The notes under the pieces: model-generated
What the model saw: only the letters and a program-made list of their open reading frames with translations
What the model was told of the DNA's origin: nothing
The model's database searches: none
Virus record (IMG/VR): IMGVR_UViG_3300050821_003459
Span: 1-36,873 of that record
Direction: 5' to 3' (one strand)
Source: a virus
Length of the DNA: 36,873 bases
Position numbers and translations under genes: made by a program
Part shown: in pieces, positions 34,888-35,983 of the stretch
How positions within the stretch are numbered: the first letter of the stretch is position 1
Layout of the letters: each line of letters begins with the position of its first letter

Positions 34888-35379
34888 ATGTTATGGCGAC
34901 TTTCAGACCGTGGCGACCCTTCGGCGTGCAAAATCGCTGACCGCCACTACAATCGTCAGAAACCGGGAACTCCTCAGTTCGTTCCACCGGGAAGATGTTT
35001 TGTATTGTTAACCGAAGATTTAACTTGTCTGTGGGTAACTTCGTGGCCATTCGCTCAATTTGTAAAGCATGAATGGGCTGGCGCTTGGGTAAATTCTCTT
35101 TTTCGCCGTGAAGGTGGGGAAAAAGCAAGCATACTTATTCGCGATGCTATTGCGGCGACTCGTTGGTTTTACGGCGACCCACCAGAATTGGGAATGGTCA
35201 CATTTATTGATCGAGAAAAAGTTCGCCCACGCCGAGCGGGTTACGGAAAATGTTATCTCGCAGCTGGCTTTGAAGTGGCCGGGGAAACGAAAGGTGGGTT
35301 ACTTGCACTTAGGATGAGGCCGGAAGTTATGCCGCCAGCGGAGAAACCGCTGATGGGTTGTGACAAATTTTTTACTTGA
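34888..35379 (+). CDS. Conserved phage protein, possibly acetyltransferase-like
   Basis: The 163-residue protein opens MLWRLSDRGDPSACKIADRH and continues to RQKPGTPQFVPPGRCFVLL, a start known to me from phage and prophage proteins with a weak GNAT-like pattern. The middle has beta strands and a Trp-rich stretch, and near the end RAGYGKCYLAAGFEVAGE resembles the GNAT 'GYGK.y...GF' site. It is a hypothesis, not a firm assignment. It may modify host proteins or nucleotides. Ends in TGA, which overlaps a possible promoter. Confidence 0.5.
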   Translation: MLWRLSDRGDPSACKIADRHYNRQKPGTPQFVPPGRCFVLLTEDLTCLWVTSWPFAQFVKHEWAGAWVNSLFRREGGEKASILIRDAIAATRWFYGDPPELGMVTFIDREKVRPRRAGYGKCYLAAGFEVAGETKGGLLALRMRPEVMPPAEKPLMGCDKFFT

Positions 35380-35411: not shown

Positions 35412-35849
35412 ATGAAACCCGAACGGTAGATTCCAACCGAACCTTACGTTTACGTTTTTGTCCGCACCGACCTTCCTATTCAGCATCAAATAGTTCAATC
35501 CCTCCACGCTGTTTATCATCTCGCTGGCCTTCGCTGCGAGCAAGGCACGCCTAACATCGTGCTCATCGGCCTTCCCAACATCAAATCACTTCGACGCGCC
35601 GAGAGAAAGTTAGAGGCAGCGAACATTCCTCACTACTCATGGTCCGAACCGGACAACGATTGGGGATTGACTTCGATTGCTACGGCTCCGCTCGTTGGCG
35701 ATCAGCGAAGGGTTCTGGCCGATTATCGAATTTACTCCGCTCCTGTAGCTCAAAATATAGAGCGCCCGACCCTAAATCGGGAGGATGTTGGTGAAATCCC
35801 AACTGGGAGCGCCAAGTTTATGCACGCCGAGTCGGAGGCATCTGACTGA
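35412..35849 (+). CDS. Peptidyl-tRNA-hydrolase-II-like gene with in-frame amber codon
   Basis: From ATG 35412 the frame reads MKPER, then TAG (35427-35429), then IPTEPYVYVFVRTDLP and VQSLHAVYHLAG, matching the PTH2 pattern of a first strand VVRxDL followed by an AAQ/VQ-x-x-HA helix (His32). A strand VLIGLPN and an ALAVxx-type region near 100-110 follow. PTH2 releases peptides from stalled tRNA. After the TAG the first usual start is GTG 35559, which would remove the catalytic helix. Thus either the TAG is read through, or the gene is broken. The last 37 codons coincide with a tRNA gene. Length 145 residues, near PTH2 size (about 115-130) apart from that tail. Confidence 0.6.
35739..35814 (+). 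tRNA. tRNA with CUA (amber) anticodon, C33
   Basis: A complete cloverleaf of 76 bases. The acceptor GCTCCTG pairs with TGGGAGC (last two pairs are G-T), the D stem is GCTC/GAGC, and the anticodon stem is CCCGA/TCGGG with loop CCCTAAA. The T stem is GTTGG/CCAAC, the variable loop has five bases, the discriminator is G, and CCA is encoded. The anticodon at 35772-35774 is CTA, so it could read UAG. Position 33, nearly always U, is C (35771), which may weaken decoding. The element lies wholly inside the 3' end of the PTH2-like reading frame. Confidence 0.8.
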
Positions 35850-35873
35850 CCTTGAGTGGTGCGGCGTGCTCCA
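35822..35873 (+). other. 52-base tRNA-like element lacking a D arm
   Basis: A perfect 7-pair acceptor stem (GCACGCC at 35822-35828 with GGCGTGC at 35863-35869) is followed by T and CCA. Inside are a six-pair hairpin (35830-35835 with 35842-35847) and a short T-arm-like ACC/GGT hairpin. There is no D arm and no readable anticodon in a 7-base loop. It is placed seven bases after one tRNA and four before the next. It could be a processed tRNA mimic, or a deletion remnant. Confidence 0.5.
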
Positions 35874-35877
35874 GTTT

Positions 35878-35983
35878 GCGCCTGTAGCTCAGCGGGAGAG
35901 CAACGGTCTCTAAAACCGTCCTCGAATAGAGCAGCAGGTATTTAACCTGTTGGTCGCGGGTTCAATTCCCGCCAGGCGCTCCA
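35878..35983 (+). tRNA. 106-base tRNA with two anticodon-like arms (CUA, UUU)
   Basis: The acceptor GCGCCTG/CAGGCGC is perfect, with T73 and encoded CCA. The D stem is GCTC/GAGC. The first anticodon arm is ACGGT-CTCTAAA-ACCGT, with U33 present and anticodon CTA (35910-35912). Then comes CCTCGAATAGAGCA and a second arm GCAGG-TATTTAA-CCTGT with TTT at 35941-35943 in the anticodon position, TGGTC, and the T arm GCGGG-TTCAATT-CCCGC. Removing one arm gives a normal-sized tRNA either way. It looks like a fusion of the 5' part of an amber-reading tRNA to the 3' part of a tRNA-Lys-like gene. A long variable arm or an intron are other readings. Confidence 0.75.

Follow-up and report, generated by a model that had tools for sequence, protein, structure and literature searches.

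The DNA at positions 35878–35983 of this phage contig raises the question of whether an RNA in which two consecutive hairpins stand between the D and T arms of a cloverleaf is a working tRNA and, if so, what it decodes. The window, meaning the whole stretch of DNA analysed, was IMG/VR virus record IMGVR_UViG_3300050821_003459 (36,873 bases, standard genetic code), which carries terminase, portal-like and DnaD-like loader genes. Also encoded in this small tailed phage are a papain-family cysteine peptidase (PF00112; 944–1705, + strand) and a GARS-like ATP-grasp protein (PF01071; 13090–14358, − strand). DNA-level relatives of this contig end were not found in the phage collection, nor were relatives recovered when sought via the DnaD-like neighbour.

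Fold of the double-arm CUA tRNA

The following features of the tRNA were defined:
35878–35983, + strand: CUA tRNA with a 36-nt variable region and encoded CCA (Rfam, covariation, covariance model R1)
35903–35919, + strand: first anticodon arm, ACGGT-CTCTAAA-ACCGT (sequence; loop invariant in all four phages)
35932–35952, + strand: second hairpin, 8 bp with a 5-nt loop, within the variable region 35920–35955 (minimum free energy folds)

The original prediction, made from the letters alone, had placed a tRNA with perfect acceptor, D and T arms and CCA at exactly these coordinates, and this description was borne out: the acceptor stem paired at 7/7 positions, the D stem at 4/4 and the T stem at 5/5, the discriminator was U73, and CCA was encoded. 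Covariance-model folding, which had been proposed as a check, gave the same answer, as the Rfam tRNA model (RF00005) matched positions 35878–35980 at 61.7 bits (E = 3.6e-11, gathering threshold 29) and treated the second hairpin as ~31 inserted bases located between the first anticodon arm and the T arm. ARAGORN reported neither this tRNA nor the neighbouring CUA tRNA. The minimum free energy was −47.5 kcal/mol (z = −4.6), and 0 of 200 shuffles were equally stable. The first arm, ACGGU-CUCUAAA-ACCGU, displays CUA with a normal U33 as had been claimed, in a 7-nt loop with the anticodon CTA at 35910–35912.

Three relatives with the same architecture were found by pattern scans of viral contigs combined with a custom structural filter: IMG/VR contigs 3300033405_000002 (L021/L277, 332 kb), 3300042090_000565 (L121/L273, 22.7 kb) and 3300043788_000023 (L153/L278, 169.6 kb), of which the first and third are from related jumbo phages. 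The window and the stretches read of the three relatives had almost no proteins in common except a Pth2-like gene, and both hairpins, whose conservation in relatives had been named as a further check, were kept in all three. The CUCUAAA loop with U33 was present in all four phages, and the RNA is a predicted amber-suppressor tRNA, which should read the UAG stop codon.

When the four sequences were aligned (alignment A8, n = 4), 98.4% of cells paired and 11 of the 31 pairs carried a two-sided change, compared with 3.8 ± 1.5 in shuffles (0 of 500 as high) and 0 in slid controls. The second hairpin contributed two-sided changes in 3 of its 8 pairs, while the D stem was invariant in all four and therefore uninformative on covariation. 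The Levitt pair 15–48 was G-C in three phages and A-U in one, as was the tertiary pair 19–56. This covariation, calculated from a small number of sequences (n = 4), speaks for a functional tRNA fold. Covariance model R1, trained on the four sequences, scored them at 118–127 bits and the other tRNAs searched at ≤57, and a fifth double-arm tRNA was not found in the loci searched. Four further candidates from viral and genome contigs (L281–L284) were rejected as chance matches of general patterns.

The prediction had allowed that the RNA might be an inactive chimera. Judged from these alignments, it is instead a real tRNA fold, because pairing is compensatory in most stems and the 15–48 and 19–56 contacts change in step with them. 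A related explanation, that the gene is a fossil, formed by recombination between two tRNA genes and transcribed without any role while other CUA tRNAs do the suppressing, draws on the presence of at least one other CUA tRNA in each of the four genomes; we regard it as unlikely, given that pairing and tertiary contacts have been maintained by compensatory change in four phages and that the CCA is intact and the CUA loop invariant.

The second hairpin had been described as an anticodon arm of 5 bp with a 7-nt loop displaying UUU and reading AAA. That shape was obtained only when forced. Folded freely, the strands CAGCAGGU/ACCUGUUG form 8 bp around a 5-nt loop in the window, and in all four phages the stem is 7–8 bp and the loop 4–7 nt. 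The loop sequences (UAUUUAA, UGUUAA, UUUUAA and GAAAUAA) are not conserved, and that of the window has no U33. Two consecutive hairpins thus stand as conserved in four phages, but the second is an oversized variable arm and not an anticodon arm; a dual-anticodon tRNA was rejected on the variation in length and sequence of its loop. A two-state version, in which the GCUC of the D stem pairs with either of two GAGC strands and toggles between the CUA arm and the second arm, would account for the invariance of both GAGC strands in all four sequences. It is nonetheless quite improbable, since the second loop is unconserved and makes no proper anticodon loop, the minimum free energy fold keeps the CUA form in all four, and a CUC-GAG mini-hairpin or common origin also explains the invariant GAGC.

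The last five bases 5′ of the T stem, UGGUC or UGGUU, behave as a normal variable loop because base 48 changes together with base 15. Tested against the definition of class II tRNAs (a paired variable arm of about 10 nt or longer), the variable region was 34–36 nt with a 7–8 bp stem, and on these sequences the simplest description is a class II-like tRNA. Like class II tRNAs and the tRNA-Sec and allo-tRNAs, some of which read stop codons, it combines a cloverleaf with a base-paired variable arm. Unlike theirs, its variable region carries a CUC-loop-GAG segment as well as the 7–8 bp hairpin and has the look of a former second D/anticodon region; at 34–36 nt it also exceeds the usual class II arm. 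Both GAGC segments resemble D-stem strands. The joining of two tRNA genes, as originally suggested, remains plausible: related phages have single-arm CUA tRNAs (L274 8700–8774 and L275 9644–9717) whose D arms, T arms and variable-loop ends closely resemble those of the double-arm tRNA. The second arm likely arose by fusion of two tRNA copies and would now serve structure rather than decoding.

A Pth2-like gene interrupted by TAG

The region 5′ of the tRNA contained the following features:
34888–35379, + strand: upstream gene (phrog_24928), function unassigned, which stops 32 bases 5′ of the Pth2-like ATG
35412–35741, + strand: Pth2-like gene, open only through an in-frame TAG (translation, AlphaFold, PDB matches)
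35427–35429, + strand: in-frame TAG, codon 6 of the Pth2-like gene (early TAG in homologues)
35739–35814, + strand: companion CUA tRNA, anticodon loop CCCTAAA (C33), T loop TGAAATC (Rfam, 51.3 bits)
35822–35873, + strand: mini tRNA-like element, 7-bp acceptor GCACGCC/GGCGTGC followed by TCCA, with two small hairpins (sequence; counterparts in L273 and L272)

The Pth2-like gene begins ATG AAA CCC GAA CGG TAG ATT CCA (35412–35435). Its protein scored 11.8 bits against Pfam PF01981, below the gathering score of 23, while a profile of 20 Pth2-like members matched a solved peptidyl-tRNA hydrolase (E = 0.007). The AlphaFold model had a pLDDT of 90, and its 13 PDB matches at E ≤ 0.001 (best E = 2.3e-5) consisted of Pth2-fold entries and unnamed relatives only. 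As modelled, the product is a Pth2-fold protein, peptidyl-tRNA hydrolase-like by fold. In this model the TAG (residue 6) belongs to an N-terminal tail of low confidence (mean pLDDT of 58 over residues 1–10); the first beta-strand (residues 12–18) comes after it and ahead of residue 50, where the next possible start is. The 3′ end of the gene is overlapped by the 5′ end of the companion tRNA; the frame continues through that tRNA (35742–35849) to a TGA at 35847–35849, and the same overlap in the same frame was seen in L273.

Homologues were drawn from GenBank phages and IMG/VR. The TAG-bearing Pth2-like genes (n = 33) fell into 18 clusters at 80% identity and included those of isolates GAP32, CBB, Serratia phage BF, ME3 and Arash. 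The early stop was TAG in 32/32 inspected, followed by A in 24 and G in 8, and nearly all lay 2–8 codons past the start. Start codons often had a Shine-Dalgarno-like sequence upstream, and in many of the genes, the window's included, the next possible start was 20–60 codons downstream, past the first strand. Codons between the TAG and that next start gave dN/dS values of 0.04 (GAP32 group) and 0.10 (Arash group); this stretch evolves as protein. In a screen for frames open through an early TAG, the Pth2-like genes were the only large conserved family (35 members), while matching TAA and TGA screens returned families of 4–5 at most. In the annotation of GAP32, the Pth2-like gene lacks its N terminus and a neighbouring HD-domain gene is split into separate hypothetical proteins. 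At L257 (6956–7315), domain and ATG...TAG leader lie in different frames, as though a base had been gained or lost; this contig has 20 tRNAs, with no CUA tRNA recognised and no in-frame TAG.

CUA tRNAs, TAG codons and the HD-domain neighbour

The second family from the screen, far behind the first, was a putative HD-domain protein encoded beside the Pth2-like gene. H73, D74 and further His were invariant, the match to PF01966 was weak (0.016), and the best fold match was the tRNA processing enzyme 3wfo (E = 0.007). An early TAG was found in the HD gene of L258, L278, L279, L118 and LR745206, and a mid-gene TAG at codon 47 across the GAP32 group and at a similar place in L259 and L261–L264. This mid-gene TAG falls in a variable loop of the protein, and the gene is under purifying selection on both sides of it (dN/dS of 0.083 on its 5′ side and 0.084 on its 3′ side). 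XacN1 and RAS14 encode both domains as one fusion protein, HD first, with a single TAG at codon 3; pT24, a Tenacibaculum phage found via the HD protein, has a Pth2-HD fusion in the opposite order with MK-TAG at codon 3, and its genome has a CUA tRNA. An HD gene was not detectable in the window. Because the positions of the TAG change while the codon stays, selection seems to have favoured a UAG gate repeatedly, rather than a particular residue.

Two other explanations were weighed against these data. If activity depended on a special amino acid inserted at UAG, as in the pyrrolysine and selenocysteine systems, conservation of the TAG would be expected; this is very improbable, as the TAG lies in a low-confidence tail or a variable HD loop and its position, and even the gene that carries it, shifts between phages. 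The ARAGORN label tRNA-Pyl reflects only the CUA anticodon. Bypass of the TAG without a tRNA, for example by re-initiation or an alternative start codon directly after it, is suggested by the ATT that often follows, ATT being a rare start codon. We consider bypass improbable too: AAT, AAC, ACC or GTT, none of them a start codon, follows many of the TAGs, there is an ATG 5′ of the TAG that is often accompanied by a Shine-Dalgarno-like sequence, and constraint around codon 47 of the GAP32-group HD gene is equal on both sides.

CUA tRNAs were present in nearly all TAG-bearing genomes examined and adjoined most such Pth2-like genes, with the limitation that loci found by homology are partly related, so that these counts are not independent. 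In RaK2 and Hallingskeid the Pth2-like gene has no in-frame TAG after its start, and no CUA tRNA was recognised. The huge phages LR745206 (L340) and LR756502 (L342) are exceptions: they have the TAG, with no CUA tRNA recognised among ~110 Rfam tRNA matches; LR745206 also has a 124-nt tRNA with an insertion (365524–365647). A CUA tRNA lies beside a Pth2-like gene without TAG in L031, L054, L056 and L108, which were selected through their CUA tRNA and cannot be counted either way. In L259, which has a CUA tRNA, the TAG is absent from the Pth2-like gene and present in the HD gene. Genome-wide recoding of TAG (code 15) was ruled out, TAG being an ordinary terminator of 7/38, 37/197, 4/19 and 12/104 open frames in the four double-arm-tRNA phages, and no excess of back-up stops was found after TAG-ended genes.

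Several further elements were recorded in these clusters. CUA tRNAs with C33 (loop CCCTAAA) recur beside Pth2-like genes at L277 9928, L275 9566 and L269 6483, and non-canonical T loops (TGAAATC, TAAAAAT, CGAGAAT and TAAAAGT) occur in several of the CUA tRNAs. The mini element sits between the two tRNAs of the window, and its hairpin loop GGAGGCATCT is identical in the L273 counterpart; two more such elements are present in L272. Folding of a shifted fragment of the element was not significant (z = −0.8). ARAGORN reported tmRNA genes near the Pth2-like gene and CUA tRNAs in L021 (2638–2988), L274, L275, L278 and L279, that of L021 with an Rfam match to permuted tmRNA.

The tRNAs could also be decoys or spares against host anticodon nucleases, with the TAG of the Pth2-like gene as a sensor of intact tRNA. 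Each cluster has several CUA tRNAs and tRNA-like elements, the best structural match of the HD protein is a tRNA-processing enzyme, and Iyer et al. (2021; PMC7824862) link phage Pth2 to tRNA damage and the rescue of ribosomes. Such a role would add to the reading of UAG, not replace it; as an alternative it seems doubtful.

Proposed readthrough and its meaning

In the reading that we prefer, to which a probability of about 0.72 is assigned, the double-arm tRNA and its companion would let ribosomes read through the codon-6 UAG of the Pth2-like gene. The tRNAs of the cluster probably exist to switch on the one TAG-interrupted gene upstream of them. Unsuppressed, the Pth2-like gene would be translated for five codons only; suppression would allow production of the complete Pth2-fold protein. 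The phage CUA tRNAs, predicted to be charged and suppressing, would compete with release factor 1 at the UAG, and the protein (with the HD protein where present) would appear only once the phage tRNAs accumulate, a form of regulation. In related phages the same kind of tRNAs would also unlock the adjacent HD-domain protein. Other CUA tRNAs of the same genomes could act without the double-arm one.

A reason for gating this gene may be that a suppressor tRNA causes readthrough and stalled ribosomes, which yield the Pth substrate, peptidyl-tRNA. In their very short length, the leaders are also similar to minigenes, which are known for peptidyl-tRNA drop-off. A feedback loop could be closed in either of these ways. 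In the HD gene, the mid-gene TAG misfits the minigene idea and fits suppression alone.

Code-15 phages (crAss-like and Lak) use a phage CUA tRNA to decode in-frame TAG, as proposed here, whereas in the present phages conserved in-frame TAGs were found only in the Pth2-like gene, its HD neighbour or both. CUA tRNAs are likewise found in the standard-code jumbo phages XacN1 (PMC5852040) and RsoM2USA (PMC8504454). Targets of the XacN1 tRNAs were sought by its authors and none was found (PMC5852040), and no specific gene was named as the target in RsoM2USA (PMC8504454). For XacN1, we propose ORF364 as the target; this is the HD-Pth2 fusion, which opens with an in-frame M-K-TAG. A Pth2 fold in jumbo phages was also described by Iyer et al. 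(2021; PMC7824862), with in-frame stop codons in phage Pth2 not mentioned; the present sequences are divergent and under the PF01981 threshold. No relevant two-anticodon or unusual suppressor tRNAs in phages were found in the open papers searched, and a report elsewhere is possible.

Large standard-code phages often carry CUA suppressor tRNAs, for which the searches published in open papers named no specific target. The target proposed here shows conservation among phages of Enterobacterales, Acinetobacter, Xanthomonadales and Bacteroidota; annotations miss it, since gene finders end at the TAG. If the proposal is true, a stop codon gates one or two genes, a use distinct from genome-wide recoding. 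The double-arm tRNA itself widens the known size range of variable arms. The broader proposal, to which we give even odds, is of a translational switch in standard-code phages, in which dedicated CUA suppressors gate a Pth2-like/HD tRNA-maintenance module via UAG-purine and of which the double-arm tRNA represents one structural variant. The module would be made only while the phage's own tRNAs are present and intact, and the arrangement, in which translation by default ends within a few codons, could in addition act as a feedback loop on peptidyl-tRNA.
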